Below, piece after piece: positions 4,780 to 12,080 of a stretch of DNA of 28,869 bases. The notes beneath the pieces are model-generated. The model did no database searches and had not been told where the DNA came from. It was given only the letters and a program-made list of their open reading frames with translations. The translations under genes and the position numbers were made by a program. This stretch comes from a virus. Within the stretch, counting starts at the first letter, position 1. Each line of letters opens with the position of its first letter. The DNA lies in the IMG/VR virus record IMGVR_UViG_3300023115_000080, positions 1-28,869 of that record; one strand, 5' to 3'.

Positions 4780-5219
4780 TGATTGTAAGTTTCGCGTTGT
4801 GCATTCTTATCGTTGAAGTGCATCAGAAGTACAGCATAATGCAGAATCTTCATAATATCACGGCGGGCAGTGCCTTTCTTATCATAACGAGAGGCATACT
4901 TGAGAATATTAGAACGGCAGAATGCTTCTCCGTCACCACATGCTTCAATCAGGTCCAGCGTTTGAATTTTATCATCACCAGAAGAGTAATGTTGATTGTA
5001 TGTTGCGGAAATATATTCTTCCAATTCTTTGATGATTCGTGATTCGCTGTACTTGTAACGTCGATCAGTTTTTTCAGTCATTTTGTTTTGAATTAAGAAT
5101 TCGTAGTCACTGTGACCCCAAGGAGTCATTCCGTCATTAACGGAGTACGGATATTCATCCATTTTTAGTTCATCATAAAGTAAAGACCAGGAATTAACCA
5201 TAGCAGAAAAGGAAATCAT
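4776..5219 (-). CDS. DUF3310-like protein
   Basis: 147 residues. The region at about 75-135 fits the phage DUF3310 family: YNQHYS, LDLIEACGDGEAFCRSNILKYASRYDKKG, then a helix ending ILHYAVLLM. These proteins are common in phages of many kinds and are often called nucleotide-kinase-like, without firm evidence; the conserved helical hairpin recalls MazG-type folds. The N-terminal 70 residues are poorly conserved-looking. The start could be ATG 5219 (26-base overlap with pebS) or ATG 5201 (MVNSW, 8-base overlap); neither has a clear ribosome binding site. It lies between pebS and gp45. Confidence 0.75.
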   Translation of the reverse strand: MISFSAMVNSWSLLYDELKMDEYPYSVNDGMTPWGHSDYEFLIQNKMTEKTDRRYKYSESRIIKELEEYISATYNQHYSSGDDKIQTLDLIEACGDGEAFCRSNILKYASRYDKKGTARRDIMKILHYAVLLMHFNDKNAQRETYNQ

Positions 5220-5874
5220 TTACAAGTGATTCTGCTTTTTCTTTTCCAAACTTGCTGGAAAGATATCCACTTACAGGATCCAGGCGTTTCATATATTTGT
5301 CGAAATCCCCGTAAGTAGAAGAAACAGCAAACCCACTAGGTTTCTTTGATTCTAGCATTTCTTTGTATGCTTGTAAATAGGCACGGAAGTCATCAAGATA
5401 ATCATTGACCTGATCCATCGTGCATTTGCGAACAAATACATTCTCGGAGAAGTGATTACCAGGTTCAAAGAATCTGAATGAACCATCTGCCTTTGGGAGA
5501 TCTGGATGAGAGAACAAATAGTTTTCCACTGGGTGTTGGAAGTCAAATACAATAATAACCTTCTTATCAAAGAAACCCATCAAATCCATCCCGAAGCAGG
5601 GTAGATTCTCACCCGTCTTTGGATAGATGATGTTGTTATATATGCAAGACTTTCCATCCCAAATCTCAACTTCCCTGGACTTGAGAACATATTTATTGTT
5701 ATATATCTTGGCGGAGAGGGAGGTGCCGTTGTCCTCCCAGTCTGCCCAGTCACAAATGTTCTCGAAGTCAGGAAACGTTTCCCACAGTACCTTCTTGTAC
5801 TGGTTCCACAGGGAGTTGGAAGTCGGCGTCAACTTTGTCATAGAGTTCAAGGAATGCTTGTTTGGTTTCATCAT
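5194..5874 (-). CDS. pebS: Phage phycoerythrobilin synthase / ferredoxin-dependent bilin reductase (PebS)
   Basis: Reduces biliverdin IXalpha to phycoerythrobilin with electrons from ferredoxin (by the PebS reaction, in two steps). The core matches phage bilin reductases: YPKTGENLPCFGMDLMGF, KKVIIVFDFQHP, FRFFEPGNHFSENVFVR, and LDPVSGYLSSKFGKEKAESLVNDFLF. The two catalytic aspartates expected from PebS (Asp105 and Asp206 in the P-SSM2 enzyme) are present in CFGMD and RLDPV. Length (226) fits PebS (233). PcyX is the alternative phage family; the closer match by eye is PebS. ATG 5874 and ATG 5841 are possible starts; both lie inside cobS, which it overlaps out of frame by 74-107 bases. It lies in the cobS-gp45-speD-gp44 run and is probably expressed early or mid infection. 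Confidence 0.92.
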   Translation of the reverse strand: MMKPNKHSLNSMTKLTPTSNSLWNQYKKVLWETFPDFENICDWADWEDNGTSLSAKIYNNKYVLKSREVEIWDGKSCIYNNIIYPKTGENLPCFGMDLMGFFDKKVIIVFDFQHPVENYLFSHPDLPKADGSFRFFEPGNHFSENVFVRKCTMDQVNDYLDDFRAYLQAYKEMLESKKPSGFAVSSTYGDFDKYMKRLDPVSGYLSSKFGKEKAESLVNDFLFCYG

Positions 5875-6871
5875 CAAATCGGTTTACACAGACTTGAATT
5901 GCTTTTGCTTTGTCTTGGAAGATAGAATAGGCACGAATGATATGTACCAGACGGCGAGTGGAAATGATTTCTTCAATACCACCATCATAGAAGGTCTTAC
6001 GGATGATGTCAGCCCAGTCAGTCAGACGCTTGCAGAAATCAGAATCACTAACACCCAGAGAAGAAGAAATACCCTCAAGGATCTTCTGCTCAGTCTTAGG
6101 AGTCGGATACTCCTGCTCAAAGGTCACAGGGAAACGCTCAAGGAATGCCTCATTAAGCACATTGGTGCCGATGAAGCGTCCATCATCACTACCCTTACCT
6201 TTGGTGTTGGCAGTGGCAATAACATTGAAACCAGCAGCAGGTTTCACCCAACGACCAATCTTCTTGAGGAAGACACCCTTACCTTCTAGAATGGACTGAA
6301 GGCAGAGGATCTTATTGGAAGCCAGGTCAATCTCATCAAGGAGAAGGACTGCTCCACGTTCGAGTGCTTCGATGACGGGACCGTTATGCCATGCGGTGTT
6401 CCCATCAACAAGCCTAAAACCACCGATAAGGTCATCTTCATCAGTCTCAATAGTAATATTTACACGGATCAGTTCGCGTCCAAGTTGGGCACAAGCTTGC
6501 TCAACAGAGAACGTTTTACCGTTGCCAGAAAGACCCGTAATGAACGTAGGATAGAAAAGACGAGATTGAATAATTTTGCGAATATCGCCAAAGTTACCAA
6601 AGCGGACGAAGGTATCATCTTTTTCGGGGATAAGATTTTGTTGTTCCTGAACGGGAACAATTGCAGCAGGAGCCTGATAGGTTTGCTCCATTTGTTCCCG
6701 AACAGTAAGATTCCACTTACCACGACCAGTTTTGTATTGCTCAAGTTTCTTAGTAACGGTCTGGTAGTTAGAACCATTCATAGCACACCATCCACGAATA
6801 TCAGCAGAAGTAACGGACTCACCGTAAACTGCCTGAAGAGAAGTAATGATGTAGTCAGCAGAGATGGTCAT
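5768..6871 (-). CDS. cobS: CobS-type AAA+ ATPase
   Basis: AAA+ ATPase of the MoxR/CobS group; the cellular CobS drives cobalt insertion with CobT and CobN. 367 residues. Walker A is GLSGNGKT (113-120), Walker B AVLLLDEID (174-182), sensor 1 ATANTKGKG (219-227), with an arginine in EAFLERF (246). The first 60 residues form a separate small domain (SADYIITSLQAVYGESVTSADIRGWC), which looks phage-specific. The ATG at 6871 follows a TATAAT box at 6902-6907. The tail after KVDADF is variable and overlaps pebS. The CobT-like partner lies directly upstream. No CobN is seen in the window, so true cobaltochelatase activity is unproven; a general ATPase/VWA remodelling role is an alternative. Confidence 0.9.
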   Translation of the reverse strand: MTISADYIITSLQAVYGESVTSADIRGWCAMNGSNYQTVTKKLEQYKTGRGKWNLTVREQMEQTYQAPAAIVPVQEQQNLIPEKDDTFVRFGNFGDIRKIIQSRLFYPTFITGLSGNGKTFSVEQACAQLGRELIRVNITIETDEDDLIGGFRLVDGNTAWHNGPVIEALERGAVLLLDEIDLASNKILCLQSILEGKGVFLKKIGRWVKPAAGFNVIATANTKGKGSDDGRFIGTNVLNEAFLERFPVTFEQEYPTPKTEQKILEGISSSLGVSDSDFCKRLTDWADIIRKTFYDGGIEEIISTRRLVHIIRAYSIFQDKAKAIQVCVNRFDDETKQAFLELYDKVDADFQLPVEPVQEGTVGNVS

Positions 6872-6901
6872 TTGTTTGGGATTTGTTTTTCAACTGAAGT
6901 T

Positions 6902-6907
6902 ATTATA
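6902..6907 (-). promoter_or_regulatory. Sigma70-like -10 box of cobS
   Basis: Minus strand TATAAT, 31 bases before the cobS ATG. A TTGAAA occurs 15 bases further upstream, inside the hairpin of the preceding terminator; the spacing is shorter than ideal. Probably an early promoter recognised by host RNA polymerase. Confidence 0.55.
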
Positions 6908-6910
6908 TAC

Positions 6911-6936
6911 GAAAAAAGGGGGTTTCAAAACCCCCA
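6911..6936 (-). terminator. Rho-independent terminator after the proline-rich gene
   Basis: On the minus strand GGGGGTTT, loop TGA, AACCCCC, then TTTTTT: a GC-rich stem followed by a T run. It lies 24 bases after the 56-aa late gene and directly before the cobS -10 box, so it separates the late unit from the cobS unit. Confidence 0.85.
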
Positions 6937-6959
6937 GTGTGCGGTTTTTAAATTGGACC

Positions 6960-7130
6960 TCAACCTTCGCCCCATCCTTTTTCTTCAACACTTTCTTCAA
7001 CGACAGGTTCAAATTTAGGTTCTGGTTTAGGAGCAGGTGCTGGTTTTGGTGCGGGTTTAGGAGCAGGTGTAGGTTCTGGAGTGGTTCCTGTTAGGGGTCT
7101 TCCAGCAATACGATCTAAAAATCTAGACAT
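6960..7130 (-). CDS. Proline-rich small protein, late-expressed
   Basis: 56 residues, function unknown. It starts MSRFLDRIAGRPLTG, continues with a strongly periodic Pro/Ala/Lys segment (residues 18-39, repeated APKP and PEP units), and ends with an acidic stretch (EPVVEESVEEKGWGEG). The middle is probably an extended linker joining a basic/hydrophobic head to an acidic tail. A late promoter octamer overlaps the stop of the CobT-like gene 21 bases before this ATG, and a terminator follows, so it is a one-gene late unit. It fills most of the gap between the CobT-like gene and cobS. A small virion or adaptor protein is one guess; nothing proves it. Confidence 0.7.
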   Translation of the reverse strand: MSRFLDRIAGRPLTGTTPEPTPAPKPAPKPAPAPKPEPKFEPVVEESVEEKGWGEG

Positions 7131-7150
7131 CGTTATAAAAAATTTTTAAT

Positions 7151-7158
7151 TATTTATT
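7151..7158 (-). promoter_or_regulatory. Late promoter before the proline-rich gene
   Basis: Minus strand AATAAATA, matching the T4-type late octamer (NATAAATA). It overlaps the TAA of the CobT-like gene and lies 21 bases before the ATG at 7130. Confidence 0.6.
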
Positions 7159-9295
7159 AGGCAACAAGCTCCACAAACTCTCCAAGGATTTTTTTATTCA
7201 TTTTCTTAGACTTGAGACTCTTGGCAAAAGCAGATTTGATTTGAGTCTTAGTAGCATCTTCAGCAACCTCAAAGTCAGCATCCTGAGAAAGGGCATTAGC
7301 AGAAATACCAAAGTAGGAATGATATCCAGACTTCTTGATAGTGAATGCCCTTTCTTTCCTCCAGATACTCATGGTCTTCTCGTGCTCAGGACCGAAGTAT
7401 CCACAGTAGCGGCGAATGAAACCACCAGCATCACGGGACTCAAGCACACGGATACCAATGAAGTTGATATCCTTGAAGTTATCGCGGAGGTTGCGAAGAA
7501 GAATATCAGTGAATTCATACCACTCACAATCAAGAGAGTAGGACATACCAGTCTTACGATCACGGAGGAAAGAATTAGGTCCAATGTAATTGGTGCCCAT
7601 AAAAGGTTCATCCTCCCAGCGGCGCTGAACTTCACGGTGATACTTGGGCATTGCTGCTTCACCATCAGTCAAGATTACACACTGAACTTTCTGGAGTTTG
7701 TTCTCCTTTTGGAAATTGGGAAGAATTTGATGGAGAGAAACAAGAGTTTCATTCAAGGGGGTTCCAGAAAGACTCATACCATAAGGAATTTGATAACGAG
7801 TGAAAGTGTTCCAACGGAAGGCATGGGCAAGACGGAACAGATTCTTCATCTGTTCTTCCAAAGTTTTACCATTAGTCTTGCTAGTGAGCATATTCATGAG
7901 AGAGAACCACTCACCAACCTGAACCAAACCATCCTTTTTGGTATAGGCAAGTTCACGAATATTTGCTTTACCATTCTCATCATAGGAAACTAGAGGATAG
8001 TCACTGGTGAAAGCATAAACCTCAAAAGGAATAGCAACCTTCTTACAGAACCAAACAAGGTTAAAGAGTTGCTTGACGGTATCGAGCATCACATCACTCA
8101 TAGAACCAGACCAGTCAAGGATAAACACCAGACCGTGATTCTTACCGTCAGCAAGGGTAGTGACTTTCTTGAAGAGGTCTTCATTGTATTTGTAGGTGTG
8201 AAGTTTGGTGCAGTCCAGCACACCAGTGCGAGCAGTAGTAGCACGAGCATAGGAGTCTGCTGCCTTACGGCACTCAAACTCTTTCACAAGATAATTGACT
8301 TCTTTCTGTGCCGAACGTTTGAACTCTACAAACTTCTTATCAACTTCACCAAAGATTTCCTCATGGGTGTGCTCCTGTTCTTCGATCCAAGAACCCCAGT
8401 ATTCTTTACACTTATCATGAATTTCAGCATTAGGAACAATGATTTTTTTCAAATCAAGTTTTGGCAACTCAAGATAAACATTCTCAGGACCACCATTCTC
8501 AACGAGTTGCTTGAGTGCTTCCTCAAGCGACTCCATAGTTTTAACCTCTGGTTCCTCATTGGTTTCACCACCAGCAGAAGTAGGTTGCTGCTCCTGCTCA
8601 GCAGTGCCACCATAAGAATCGGTTTCACCAGGCTGCTCCTGCTGATCATTCTCACCCTCAGGTTGATCAGAAAAATCAGAAGCACCTTGATTAGAACCAG
8701 AAGTCTGAGACTCCAAATCATCCATGGGAGTCTTCATTTCTTCTTCCTGCTTCTGCTTACAAAACCTATAGAGCTTCCAAGCAGCAGCAAGAACATCAAC
8801 AAAAGTTTCAGTCTCTCCAATCAAGGTGACAAGTTCTTTCTCATCATCCTCAAAAGGAACATCTACAAAGTTTCCAATCTTGTAATAAAGATTAACCTTA
8901 TCGGCAAGATTATAGGTAGTAATATCTTCATCTTCAAGTTGGAAGAAATCTTGCTCAGCAAGCTCTCCATACCCTTTGTAGAAGGTCTTGGAGAGACCCG
9001 CATACCGACGCTTCATCAGTTTTTCGATACGAACGTCCTCAACCACATTCACAAACTGTGGAGGGATCTTGTGCTCCTTCAACCAATCCTCATCGGGAGT
9101 ATAGAGAGCATGTCCCACTTCATGACCCACCAGGAGATCATAGACGGTGCTGCTTGCCTTCTCCCACATAGGAAGAGTCAGCACACGAGTGTGGACATTA
9201 AAGCAGGCAGTCTCCACCTTCTTGTGCTCAACCACCAGGTCCTCAGTGGCAAGGAGTTTAGCAAGTTGGGACTTGATTTCGTGGCGAACGGTCAT
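7157..9295 (-). CDS. CobT-like HExxH/VWA protein, partner of CobS
   Basis: 712 residues. Domains in order: an N-terminal zincin-like region with HEVGH (58-62) and a following NVVEDVRIEK (Glu at about 86), the pattern of a metal-binding HExxH...E site; an acidic, Gln/Gly-rich linker (about 180-255); a helical region; and a von Willebrand A domain with a MIDAS-type DWSGSMS (394-400). This is the layout of CobT-like VWA proteins that work with MoxR/CobS ATPases, and cobS is the next large gene. The start is ATG 9295, not the in-frame TTG at 9325, because that TTG lies over a TATAAT promoter box at 9317-9322. The intact HExxH raises the possibility of peptidase activity. Substrate is unknown. Family assignment is sound; reaction is inference. 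Confidence 0.85.
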   Translation of the reverse strand: MTVRHEIKSQLAKLLATEDLVVEHKKVETACFNVHTRVLTLPMWEKASSTVYDLLVGHEVGHALYTPDEDWLKEHKIPPQFVNVVEDVRIEKLMKRRYAGLSKTFYKGYGELAEQDFFQLEDEDITTYNLADKVNLYYKIGNFVDVPFEDDEKELVTLIGETETFVDVLAAAWKLYRFCKQKQEEEMKTPMDDLESQTSGSNQGASDFSDQPEGENDQQEQPGETDSYGGTAEQEQQPTSAGGETNEEPEVKTMESLEEALKQLVENGGPENVYLELPKLDLKKIIVPNAEIHDKCKEYWGSWIEEQEHTHEEIFGEVDKKFVEFKRSAQKEVNYLVKEFECRKAADSYARATTARTGVLDCTKLHTYKYNEDLFKKVTTLADGKNHGLVFILDWSGSMSDVMLDTVKQLFNLVWFCKKVAIPFEVYAFTSDYPLVSYDENGKANIRELAYTKKDGLVQVGEWFSLMNMLTSKTNGKTLEEQMKNLFRLAHAFRWNTFTRYQIPYGMSLSGTPLNETLVSLHQILPNFQKENKLQKVQCVILTDGEAAMPKYHREVQRRWEDEPFMGTNYIGPNSFLRDRKTGMSYSLDCEWYEFTDILLRNLRDNFKDINFIGIRVLESRDAGGFIRRYCGYFGPEHEKTMSIWRKERAFTIKKSGYHSYFGISANALSQDADFEVAEDATKTQIKSAFAKSLKSKKMNKKILGEFVELVA

Positions 9296-9316: not shown

Positions 9317-9322
9317 ATTATA
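9317..9322 (-). promoter_or_regulatory. Sigma70-like -10 box of the CobT-like gene
   Basis: Minus strand TATAAT directly after a terminator hairpin, 21 bases before the ATG at 9295. No good -35 is seen at the usual distance, so strength is uncertain. Confidence 0.5.
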
Positions 9323-9325
9323 CAA

Positions 9326-9352
9326 AAGAACCCCGCTGTTTAGGCGGGGTCA
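9326..9352 (-). terminator. Rho-independent terminator of the fibre/sulfotransferase unit
   Basis: Minus strand stem ACCCCGC / GCGGGGT with loop CTAAACA, then TTCTTTTG. The T run is imperfect, but the stem is fully paired and GC-rich. It lies in the gap after the 83-aa gene and before the CobT-like gene. Confidence 0.75.
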
Positions 9353-9397
9353 TGTGACGGTTCATCAACTGTCTTTGGGTATAATTATTTATCAGTA

Positions 9398-9659: not shown

Positions 9660-10493
9660 CTATTGTACAATGTTTAATTTTTGTCTCCAAAAATCCATTC
9701 CTTTACACTTATTTAAAATGTTTTTAGAGAGAATTTCTGATGGATCTGGTGCAGTTGATTCAAGTTTAGAATGAACTTGGTGCATATCAGCAAGTCCATA
9801 AGTTCTCAAATCTTGTTCTTGGTTTTGATTCTTCAAATTATCAAAGGTATGTTCATAATATTCTTCACCAACAAATTCATACAAAGATTCAAGAGTTTCT
9901 TCTGGATTATTTACCAAGTCTTTATATTCAACAAAATGAATATTGTCTGCAAATCCTTGCTTTAGTCCTTTTTGAATTGCATCTAAACTTTGACCAAGAA
10001 TTCCTTGAGGACCAGCAATATATTCACAACGATTATCATCACTCAAGGGAATATTAAGTTTAACAAGTTGTTCATCAATAAAGTTAATTCTTTCCTGACC
10101 TTCTTTATAGGGATTACGACGAATCATCATAATCATTGAAGTGAGAATTTCATCAATATCTCTCACAGGACAAATAATCTTTGCTTGTTGACCAATATAA
10201 CCTTGAATATAAGGAACTCTTGCAGTCCAAGCACGATTCTTATCAATTACTACAGGTTTCTCAACATCATCATAGAATTGATCAATAATTGAAGAGATAA
10301 TATTCTTTGCTTGTTCTGGTTTTGGATATCCAGTAAAGAGTTCATTATTTGCTAAATGATTTTCCACAGTATACATTGTGGATAAAACTGGACTTGAAGG
10401 ACCAGAATAAAATCTTGGATTTTGATTTAAAATCGCAGAAAGGACGGTACTACCAGAACGAGGTAGTCCTGCCATAAAATAATAAGTTTTCAT
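9660..10493 (-). CDS. Sulfotransferase family protein
   Basis: 277 residues with the fold signature of PAPS-dependent sulfotransferases, which move sulfate from PAPS to hydroxyl or amino groups. The 5'-phosphosulfate-binding loop is GLPRSGSTVLSAIL (from residue 9). A second conserved stretch, IICPVRDIDEILTSM (about 106-120), corresponds to the RDxxD region that contacts the 3'-phosphate. Residues near FVEYKDLVNNPEETLESLYEFVG match the usual C-terminal helix of this family. It lies 13 bases after the fibre gene and is probably expressed with it as a late gene. Acceptor is unknown; the fibre itself, another virion protein or a host surface glycan are candidates by inference. Confidence 0.87.
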   Translation of the reverse strand: MKTYYFMAGLPRSGSTVLSAILNQNPRFYSGPSSPVLSTMYTVENHLANNELFTGYPKPEQAKNIISSIIDQFYDDVEKPVVIDKNRAWTARVPYIQGYIGQQAKIICPVRDIDEILTSMIMMIRRNPYKEGQERINFIDEQLVKLNIPLSDDNRCEYIAGPQGILGQSLDAIQKGLKQGFADNIHFVEYKDLVNNPEETLESLYEFVGEEYYEHTFDNLKNQNQEQDLRTYGLADMHQVHSKLESTAPDPSEILSKNILNKCKGMDFWRQKLNIVQ

Positions 10494-10506: not shown

Positions 10507-11916
10507 TCAAACTGCAGTAGTTGTAAGTGTACCATCAGTATTTACACTCAATCTCCAAGCAACTCCGTTGGAATCAGTAAGTATAACACCCTCTGAAGTA
10601 TTAACACCAACTTTAACATCACCCCCAACTTGAAGTTTCGTTGTTGGATTTGTGGTTCCTATACCAATATTGAAGTTTTCATTACCCACAATCCAATAAT
10701 CAGTATGACCGCCAGATCCAGTGGTTTTTATACCAATTGCAAGTTGAGTGCTCTTATGTGGTTCTGGAGCATCAAAATCACCCCTGAATGCATTAGTACC
10801 AACACCAATGATAACTTTATGATCTACCGTTGTGGTATAGTCACCAAAACCACCTGTATGAGCACCAAGGAACATACTCCACGATGTTGTGGCAGAAGCA
10901 TATCCTGCACCCTCTCCTAAGAAAACATTTTCTCTTCCACCATCATTATCAGAACCAGCGCCGCCACCAATATAAACATTTCTAGAACCACTATAGTTTT
11001 GACCAGCACCAGCACTATTACCAATAATAATATTAGAAAAAGCATCAGTTGATGAATTGAGACTATATCCAGAATATCGACCCAGGAATATATTATCCGT
11101 TCCTGTAGTATTGGCCTGTCCTGCAAACTGTCCAATGGCAATATTACGTGATCCAGTGGTATTATATGCTCCTGCATATCTACCAATAAAGACATTCTGA
11201 TTTCCAGTGGTGTTATATTTTCCTGCAGACGAGCCAAAGAAGTTATTATCATCTCCACCAGTGTTAGAATATCCCGCATATGAACCAATGAAGTTATTTT
11301 GATGTCCATCGGTATTGTTAATTCCAGCACTATAACCACCTATGAAAACATTATTATAACCAGTGGTGTTAGCACGCCCAGAATAAAGACCAAAGAAGTT
11401 ATTATAATATCCAGTGGTGTTGTTTTCTCCCGCATAAAGACCAAAGAAGTTATTACCAGTTCCAGTAGTGGTTAATTTACCTGCACCACCACCAATAAAG
11501 TTGTTATTAAGTCCTTTCCAATCACCACCTACTTTTGGGGTCAGGTTTGGTCCTGTATTTTCATCGCCAATTAGAACATTTGTTGATGGATAAGCATATC
11601 CCAGAACAGTTCCAAATCCAATTACTTGAGAATCAAATGTTGAACCAACTTGTAGTTTCGTTTGTGGATTTGTGGTCCCCACTCCAACATTAGAAGTTGT
11701 GTTAATTCCTGCTCCTGTTGATTCCCAGTAGGATTCCCCACCTCCACCTCCACCACCGATAGTAGTGCCACCAGCAGTGGAACCATCTGATAGTTTGAGG
11801 GAGGCAACACTGGGGTTATAGAATACTTCTCCTTCATTTCCAATAAAGGCATCAGGGTCAGTTGCTCCAAGTTTTTCTACAAGAAGTCTATAAGTAGTGT
11901 TGGTTGATAAAGACAT
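10507..11916 (-). CDS. Repeat-rich tail fibre / adhesin-like structural protein
   Basis: 469 residues. The N-terminus (GNEGEVFYNPSVASLKLSDGSTAGG) matches the start of many cyanophage fibre or virion surface proteins, followed by a Gly run (54-60). Residues about 138-354 are a run of roughly a dozen repeats of about 17 residues, consensus NNFFGxYAGxxNTTGxx. The repeat flanks carry two copies of GTTNPxTKLQVG (about 80-91 and 420-431). The end, WRLSVNTDGTLTTT, is also typical of cyanophage surface proteins. The Gly/Asn-rich IG..AG pattern suggests a trimeric beta-structure like YadA-type adhesin heads, which is inference. There is no intramolecular S74 chaperone. A late promoter lies 25 bases upstream. 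Host recognition is the likely role. Confidence 0.82.
   Translation of the reverse strand: MSLSTNTTYRLLVEKLGATDPDAFIGNEGEVFYNPSVASLKLSDGSTAGGTTIGGGGGGGESYWESTGAGINTTSNVGVGTTNPQTKLQVGSTFDSQVIGFGTVLGYAYPSTNVLIGDENTGPNLTPKVGGDWKGLNNNFIGGGAGKLTTTGTGNNFFGLYAGENNTTGYYNNFFGLYSGRANTTGYNNVFIGGYSAGINNTDGHQNNFIGSYAGYSNTGGDDNNFFGSSAGKYNTTGNQNVFIGRYAGAYNTTGSRNIAIGQFAGQANTTGTDNIFLGRYSGYSLNSSTDAFSNIIIGNSAGAGQNYSGSRNVYIGGGAGSDNDGGRENVFLGEGAGYASATTSWSMFLGAHTGGFGDYTTTVDHKVIIGVGTNAFRGDFDAPEPHKSTQLAIGIKTTGSGGHTDYWIVGNENFNIGIGTTNPTTKLQVGGDVKVGVNTSEGVILTDSNGVAWRLSVNTDGTLTTTAV
10855..11505 (-). repeat. About twelve 17-residue (51-base) tandem repeats within the fibre gene
   Basis: Successive units such as NNFFGLYAGENNTTGYY, NNFFGLYSGRANTTGYN, NNFFGSSAGKYNTTGNQ, NVFIGRYAGAYNTTGSR and NIAIGQFAGQANTTGTD, mostly 17 residues, with two or three longer or degenerate units towards the C-terminal end. 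The underlying DNA repeats are diverged, so the array is old or under selection at protein level. Confidence 0.85.
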
Positions 11917-12080
11917 TTTATTTTATACAGACTTTTTATGTATTTATTAAAAAAAGCGTCCCCTTGCTGGAGACGCTTCTTGAGTGCTTGGCGGCGTGCC
12001 TTTGCTTGTCGGAGTGCTTGTGGTTTAAGTTTTCGTTTCTGTTCTTTCTTGGAATGGTGCTGCCAATTTGGAGTGTTCAT
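11877..12080 (-). CDS. Basic small ORF after gp46, reading through a terminator
   Basis: 67 residues. The first 40 are strikingly basic (KKEQKRKLKPQALRQAKARRQALKKRL) and look like a nucleic-acid-binding helix. The ATG overlaps the gp46 stop as ATGA, the typical arrangement for a real gene here. However, the reading frame then passes through a terminator hairpin, a late promoter octamer and into the start of the fibre gene before stopping. The C-terminal 25 residues (NKYIKSLYKIKCLYQ...) are therefore probably not meaningful, and most transcripts would end without the stop codon. The gene may be functional, truncated or decaying. Confidence 0.5.
   Translation of the reverse strand: MNTPNWQHHSKKEQKRKLKPQALRQAKARRQALKKRLQQGDAFFNKYIKSLYKIKCLYQPTLLIDFL
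11941..11948 (-). promoter_or_regulatory. Late promoter of the fibre unit
   Basis: Minus strand AATAAATA directly after the T run of the gp46 terminator, 25 bases before the fibre ATG. Matches the late octamer and its spacing elsewhere in the window. Confidence 0.65.
11948..11978 (-). terminator. Rho-independent terminator of the gp55-gp47-gp46 unit
   Basis: Minus strand stem AAGCGTCTCC / GGGGACGCTT (one T-G wobble) with loop AGCAA, then seven T. It lies within the reading frame of the basic small ORF. Confidence 0.8.

Follow-up and report, generated by a model that had tools for sequence, protein, structure and literature searches.

The window analysed here is the whole of IMG/VR virus record IMGVR_UViG_3300023115_000080 (28,869 bases), a genome fragment of a T4-like cyanophage. 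It was placed in the Kyanoviridae by the genes recognised together in it, all on the minus strand: those for the clamp loader gp44, the clamp gp45, the SbcCD-like gp46/gp47, UvsW, the capsid protein gp23, the portal gp20, the sheath gp18 and the terminase gp17. Between gp46 and gp45, on the minus strand throughout, lie the genes for a protein of 712 residues with a VWA domain (vwa), a proline-rich protein of 56 residues and a MoxR-family AAA+ ATPase (cobS-like) (Table 1). A preliminary description of the locus, made from the sequence alone, had noted HEVGH, a following NVVEDVRIEK and the metal ion-dependent adhesion site (MIDAS) DWSGSMS in the 712-residue protein, upstream of a CobS-type ATPase with intact Walker motifs, and all of these features were confirmed. 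The large protein belongs to PHROG 459 ("peptidase", E 8e-270) and the ATPase to PHROG 249 ("porphyrin biosynthesis", E 7e-141); given both matches and the occurrence of the large protein in 463 of 50,697 phage records, nearly all of them from Kyanoviridae, the observed pair is not a product of chance. Phage organism counts agree between the large protein and the full-length ATPase, and the nearest named relative, S-SRM01, shares 71% and 80% identity with the two proteins.

The pair itself is known. It is a further member of the families described in cyanophages as core cobS (T4-GC 150, PHROG 249) and "peptidase" (T4-GC 146, PHROG 459), which are identical to those found here and occupy the same location between gp46 and gp45; cobS is among the 25 genes common to all T4-like cyanophage genomes studied (PMC3037559). 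Two published interpretations exist. Liu et al. 2021 (PMC8651126) named the pair cobST, called the peptidase annotation a mistake and proposed that the pair takes over the CobN of the host. Iyer et al. 2021 (PMC7824862) described, in group 2.2 jumbo phages, a MoxR ATPase adjoining a vWA protein with a fused N-terminal metallopeptidase, and proposed a role in virion assembly with structural-protein processing. The remodeller/peptidase idea is therefore already in print for sister phages: cyanophages form group 2.1 of the same authors, and the jumbo-phage pair, from another branch of T4-related phages, is likened to the cyanophage pair by its domain architecture.

Conservation of the HExxH site

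Among 83 diverse relatives of the 712-residue protein, with identities down to 29%, the residues H58, E59 and H62 of the HExxH motif are invariant, as are N83, E86, D87 and R89 downstream and the MIDAS residues D394, S396, S398, T512 and D544. The same seven N-terminal residues are among the few invariant columns of a nine-phage alignment that includes Pelagibacter phage Mosig (34%) and Ochrobactrum phage OC (23%). An invariant HExxH (H58-E59-H62) followed by an invariant glutamate (E86) on the next helix corresponds to a motif of the gluzincin type. Searches seeded inside HExxH or NxxED were not used as proof of conservation; seeds outside the motif, including C-terminal ones, were run instead, and HExxH was kept in 150 of 150 complete relatives (79/79 in one search and 71/71 in the C-terminal search). 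The codons for H58, E59 and H62 change synonymously and freely among relatives. These patterns are evidence, at the sequence level, that the putative peptidase site is under strict selection.

Ten proteins in our survey appeared to have lost HExxH. Nine of these are cut at locus ends, and the tenth, from Pseudoalteromonas phage XG4 (locus L252, 4851-7108), has its HExxH domain on a separate open reading frame (ORF) that overlaps the neighbouring VWA ORF, with the order of the two swapped. The XG4 record is labelled UNVERIFIED, and the ATPase in it seems to be frameshifted. Judged from the split, the HExxH domain is a separate module. A similar split has been reported for HHTV-2 (PMC8651126).

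Predicted structure of the 712-residue protein

Sequence searches of Pfam, NCBIfam and the PDB with the 712-residue protein gave no useful match. Conservation within the protein is highest in the N-domain, where 20 of 180 positions are invariant, and in the AlphaFold2 model of residues 1-187 the HExxH motif lies on helix 49-65 and NxxED on helix 79-97. The top PDB matches to this model are nearly all zinc metallopeptidases (ArdC, selecase, abylysin, ZMPSTE24/Ste24, Wss1, IrrE and BlaR1), with Z values of at most 7.3, below the tool's trust level of 8; from the model, a zincin fold for the N-domain is likely. Minigluzincins (selecase, abylysin, jannalysin) and ArdC resemble the phage N-domain in predicted fold, with an HExxH helix followed by a glutamate-bearing helix, but share only 10-16% identity with it (Z < 8) and have neither a VWA domain nor an ATPase partner. 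No N-domain of CobT or NorD was among the matches in these fold searches, an absence that does not count as evidence. With the full-length model, ordinary VWA domains match at Z values of 12 and below, under those of Midasin/Rea1 and NorD (Table 1).

Relation to CobT and CbbO

The phage protein is related to known MoxR adaptors at both of its ends. Profile comparison connects its VWA region with that of CobT (probability 95.8, E 7e-9), whereas a direct profile comparison between the N-domains of the phage protein and of canonical CobT fell short of significance (E 0.03). The link between these N-domains thus needs intermediates of the type of L188, a planctomycete protein encoded next to a MoxR ATPase, which carries HECAH, matches the CobT models PF06213 (8.5e-14) and PF11775 (3e-20), and has an N-domain that matches PHROG 459; L188-type N-domains match the phage N-domain with a profile probability of 99.7. 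In a survey of planctomycete CobT, the genome of L188 was the only one over the cut-off. Canonical CobT has no HExxH (21 of 21 Rhodobacteraceae proteins), and in the CobT structure PDB 9uka the segment aligned to the HECAH stretch lacks the motif.

Searching 299 Pseudomonadota genomes with the phage N-domain profile yielded a series of proteins of 745-802 residues with HMxxH...ED (profile comparison with the phage N-domain: probability 96.6, E 5e-10). Most of those whose surroundings were fetched adjoin RbcL and a CbbQ-type ATPase, which identifies them as CbbO. Both histidines and the ED helix are kept in CbbO, and the catalytic glutamate is replaced in 19 of 19 sampled proteins, mostly giving HMxxH. 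A zincin-like N-domain with HMxxH...ED is thus seen in CbbO of Rubisco operons (loci L305, L307, L308, L309 and L314), and we know of no earlier description of it.

Three states of the domain were accordingly observed. It is whole in cyanophages and in some CobT-like proteins of bacteria or prophages; CbbO lacks the catalytic glutamate, and CobT lacks every one of the HExxH residues. Sequence comparison gives evidence that the phage N-domain is an intact version of a domain that is dead in CobT and half-dead in CbbO; the direction of change among the three states is inferred from sequence.

The likenesses extend to the systems as a whole. CobS-CobT of the aerobic cobaltochelatase (PDB 9uka, 9ujv) shares with the phage pair a MoxR ring with a VWA adaptor, a related N-domain and a related pre-VWA/VWA region, but its canonical CobT lacks the HExxH residues, the phage proteins fall below the curated CobS and CobT cut-offs, and cyanophages lack CobN. 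In the Rubisco activase CbbQ-CbbO and in NorQ-NorD, too, a VWA adaptor accompanies a MoxR ATPase; the N-domain of CbbO is the same, apart from its replaced catalytic glutamate, and NorD is close in VWA fold, whereas the proteins of both systems are larger and divergent.

The ATPase and the distribution of the pair

The ATPase belongs to the MoxR family, as judged from its match to PF07728 (AAA_5; 64.9 bits against a cut-off of 22) and from its Walker A and B motifs, sensor 1, arginine finger and sensor 2; TANTKG, AFLERF and STRRL are among its AAA+ motifs, of which it has the full set, and the motifs are retained in 175-182 of 182 relatives. On the same strand and 3' of vwa in 210 of the 214 loci that hold both genes, it forms with its neighbour, whose MIDAS is invariant, a two-gene MoxR-VWA system. 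Against the CobS equivalog TIGR01650 of NCBIfam it scores 64.8 bits (E 7e-18), far under the curated cut-off of 558.55, and the 712-residue protein matches none of the CobT models PF06213, PF11775 and TIGR01651 up to an E value of 1.

Where the flanks are long enough, the upstream side holds gp46 in 147 of 161 loci, and the downstream side holds gp45 in 79 of 83. In phages unrelated to these, the pair lies ahead of DNA polymerase III alpha (SSU5, PhiR41_1, ANB28, RHph_Y2_11, B1VFA and Nican01) or, in ICP2, primase/helicase/polymerase. Salmonella phage SSU5 and Escherichia coli phage PhiR41_1 carry the pair with HExxH, and the pair is also found in Pelagibacter and Ochrobactrum phages. For Staphylococcus phages with a CobS-like ATPase, no HExxH/VWA partner was found in the neighbouring ORFs checked. 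Some bacterial and archaeal assemblies (L169, L172, L174 and others) contain pair-bearing phage contigs binned as host, for example a 188-kb contig in Nonlabens xiamenensis and a 161-kb contig in a Chloroflexi metagenome-assembled genome.

No CobN was found in the window, which is only a fragment, or in any cyanophage record. A near full-length CobN-like gene is present in the record of Pseudomonas phage Y13 (OQ572414.1, 16457-20014), which could be mislabelled or contaminated. Among 41 genomes of the Cyanobiaceae, the hosts, CobN exceeded the cut-off in 31, CobT in none, and CobS appeared solely as phage contamination.

The small gene and its promoter

The 56-residue protein belongs to a real gene family, M[SG]RF.[DE]L, whose middle is variable, rich in proline, alanine and glutamate and unconserved, and whose gene is often absent. 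Upstream of it is a late promoter of the gp55 type, for which the published consensus is NATAAATA (PMC2984593). The late motif ATAAATA occurs within 45 nucleotides (nt) upstream of 67 of 69 distinct homologues of the small gene, against 51 of 4,900 random windows; within 60 nt it is found at 0 of 226 vwa and 4 of 206 cobS genes, and within 200 nt at only 5 of 162 distinct vwa upstream regions. The window has 13 ATAAATA sites, all on the coding (minus) strand, where 6.8 would be expected on both strands. One of them (9386-9392) lies 91 nt ahead of vwa, from which a terminator-like hairpin separates it, and TATAAT is present within 60 nt upstream of vwa in 81 of 162 relatives.

With its own late promoter and a terminator-like hairpin, the small gene appears to be a late gene sitting within an operon of the middle type. 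The suggestion that its product is an adaptor or substrate of the machine found no support: it has a late promoter where vwa and cobS do not, the gene is often missing, and its middle is not conserved, so that position alone ties it to the pair and an adaptor role is unsupported. In longer members of the family (for example those at L035 and L055), a C-terminal module weakly matches prohead protease inhibitor PHROGs (E 0.001-0.03), a possible lead to a late inhibitor or head protein.

Table 1 Features of the vwa-cobS locus (positions in the window; nt, nucleotides; pLDDT, predicted local distance difference test; pTM, predicted template modelling score).
Feature	Position	Strand	Remarks
712-residue protein (PHROG 459 "peptidase", also called cobT)	7157..9295	-	zincin-type N-domain (predicted), acidic linker, helical stalk, VWA/MIDAS; start taken as ATG at 9295, alternative TTG 10 codons upstream also offered by ORF tool
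Predicted zincin-type N-domain, residues 8-187	8735..9274	-	pLDDT 90.7, pTM 0.86
HEVGH, residues 58-62	9110..9124	-	predicted zinc ligands H58, H62; predicted catalytic base E59
NVVEDVRIE, residues 83-91 (NVVEDVRIEK to 92)	9023..9049	-	predicted third ligand E86, on next helix, 24 residues past H62
Low-complexity acidic linker, residues 188-250	8546..8734	-	predicted disordered
Long helix ahead of VWA domain, residues 311-357	8225..8365	-	in CobT-shared region
VWA domain	7442..8146	-	best fold matches Midasin/Rea1 MIDAS (Z 16.2) and NorD bound to NorQ (Z 15.4)
MIDAS DWSGS (DWSGSMS, residues 394-400)	8102..8116	-	site completed by T512, D544
Possible -10 box TATAAT of 712-residue gene	9317..9322	-	22 nt upstream of the gene
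Terminator-like hairpin	9329..9351	-	between upstream late motif and 712-residue gene
AATAAATA, gp55-type late promoter of small gene	7151..7158	-	overlaps stop of 712-residue gene
56-residue proline-rich gene, M[SG]RF.[DE]L family	6960..7130	-	C-terminal helical module of many other members missing here
Strong hairpin like an intrinsic terminator (GGGGGTTTTGAAACCCCC TTTTTT)	6918..6935	-	3' of small gene
Possible -10 box TATAAT upstream of cobS-like gene	6902..6907	-	from sequence
367-residue MoxR-family AAA+ ATPase ("CobS", PHROG 249; PF07728)	5768..6871	-
Walker A GLSGNGKT	6512..6535	-
Walker B LLLDEID	6326..6346	-

Neighbouring genes

Several other genes of the window, all on the minus strand, flank the locus. 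A sulfotransferase-family gene (9660-10493) lies between gp46 and the VWA gene, and an S-adenosylmethionine decarboxylase gene (speD, PF02675; 3770-4108) adjoins that of the sliding clamp. The frame of a ferredoxin-dependent bilin reductase of the PcyA/PebS type (PF05996, E 4.5e-16; 5194-5877) overlaps the 3' end of the cobS-like gene. At 10507-11916 is encoded a protein of 469 residues with many NNFFG..AG..NTTG repeats and a weak likeness to virion structural and tail-spike PHROGs; a late motif is found at 11941.

Discussion

We propose that the pair is an AAA+ remodelling machine with a built-in metallopeptidase, and not a cobaltochelatase, with targets in the replication-linked middle phase of infection; we would put the probability of this reading at roughly 0.6. 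The CobS-like MoxR ATPase would form the ring motor, on which the MIDAS domain of the 712-residue protein, as a VWA adaptor, would dock, and the disordered acidic linker may provide reach. The N-terminal zincin-type domain would bind metal through H58, H62 and E86 and appears built for peptide-bond cleavage with E59 as base; likely targets are protein complexes handled during the middle phase, within or close to the replication, recombination and late-transcription cluster in which the pair lies. The basis of this reading consists of motifs, conservation, predicted folds, homology of the N- and VWA domains with CobT and CbbO, gene linkage and the promoter pattern. By analogy with CobST, NorQD and CbbQO the ATPase and the VWA protein are presumably physical partners, and metal binding, proteolysis and the choice of substrate are what such an architecture would imply. 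That the pair could be a remodelling or peptidase machine and not a chelatase had been suggested in the preliminary description, and this gains support from the missed CobS and CobT thresholds, the strictly kept HExxH, the presence of the pair in phages of non-cyanobacterial hosts and its replication-gene neighbours.

Several points weigh against this interpretation. The Z values of the N-domain model are under the tool's own trust level; an HExxH motif can bind metal without cleaving; and linkage to replication genes bears on substrates only indirectly. HExxH has also been lost in two of eight distant phage pairs that retain the VWA domain (Nican01 and ANB28), so the peptidase seems dispensable in some machines. 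Free loss of the motif beside a retained VWA domain had been named beforehand as an outcome that would contradict the proposal: within the family it never occurs, and outside it occurs in these two pairs, in CobT and, for the catalytic glutamate, in CbbO.

A role of the same machine in virion assembly, as a chaperone or protease for structural proteins, is the best of the alternatives, and we regard it as doubtful. It was proposed in print for the same domain architecture in the group 2.2 jumbo phages, on the model of the ATV tail proteins p618/p892, which also form a viral MoxR and VWA pair but lack a peptidase domain and act on the virion tail (Iyer et al. 2021, PMC7824862). In its favour, the gene that lies between vwa and cobS is a late one, of unknown function. 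Late promoters, however, are nearly absent at vwa and cobS themselves, and the pair is repeatedly linked to replication genes across several phage groups that are unrelated, which leads us to prefer a replication-phase substrate. Kyanoviridae, moreover, have their own prohead protease of the gp21 type.

That the pair substitutes for missing CobS and CobT, inserting cobalt with host CobN and raising cobalamin production (Liu et al. 2021, PMC8651126, and earlier cyanophage papers), seems unlikely to us. Profile comparison relates the VWA region to CobT, L188 links the N-domain to PF06213, and hosts that have CobN without CobT or CobS of their own are just what Liu et al. need; the host argument thus cuts both ways. 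Lack of CobN in the window, on which the preliminary description had drawn, is true of the record but a weak argument, for the record is a fragment and most hosts have CobN, though none of the cyanophage records has one. Against the chelatase reading stand the shortfall of the ATPase against the CobS cut-off, the failure of the VWA protein to match any CobT model, and the HExxH motif, which true CobT has lost and the phage family never has. The pair is also carried by phages of Pelagibacter, E. coli and Salmonella, and the latter two hosts do not use the aerobic CobNST chelatase route.

It is similarly improbable that the machine only remodels and that the HExxH metal serves structure, sensing or cofactor delivery, as may hold for CbbO. 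CbbO, with both histidines, the ED helix and a replaced glutamate, indicates that the fold can serve MoxR machines without catalysis, but E59, which is required for catalysis and not for metal binding, is invariant in all 83 phage relatives. An analogue of the activase CbbQO acting on the host's Rubisco, which is of form IA, is very improbable: most sampled cellular homologues of the N-domain are indeed CbbO in RbcL-CbbQ-CbbO operons, but the same pair occurs in phages of heterotrophs that have no Rubisco.

A wider form of the remodeller-peptidase proposal can be put forward tentatively, and we lean somewhat against it. The pair might represent a new two-gene type of ATP-driven metalloprotease, with a fused zincin to which substrates are passed by a MoxR ring and a VWA adaptor; CobT and CbbO, and perhaps NorD, would then be descendants or sisters whose protease domain died stepwise, and cyanophage "cobS" would be the motor of a replication-phase protease and not a B12 gene.

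Evidence added here comprises the strict selection on the site, the domain shared with CobT and CbbO, the failed CobS and CobT thresholds, the replication context and the separate late small gene. The published readings conflict, the peptidase label being mistaken in one (Liu et al. 2021) and the metallopeptidase real in the other (Iyer et al. 2021); conservation and homology favour an intact site, and the N-domain that CobT itself shares explains the confusion between them. The graded loss of the site, from HExxH in phages through HMxxH in CbbO to none in CobT, opens the origin of MoxR adaptors to direct test, and PhiR41_1 offers an E. coli laboratory host. Marine cyanophages have long been credited with cobS as a core auxiliary metabolic gene, and ecology papers take its presence to indicate viral B12 metabolism; should the pair be a remodeller or protease, that reading would be mistaken for a virus group that is among the most abundant in the sea.

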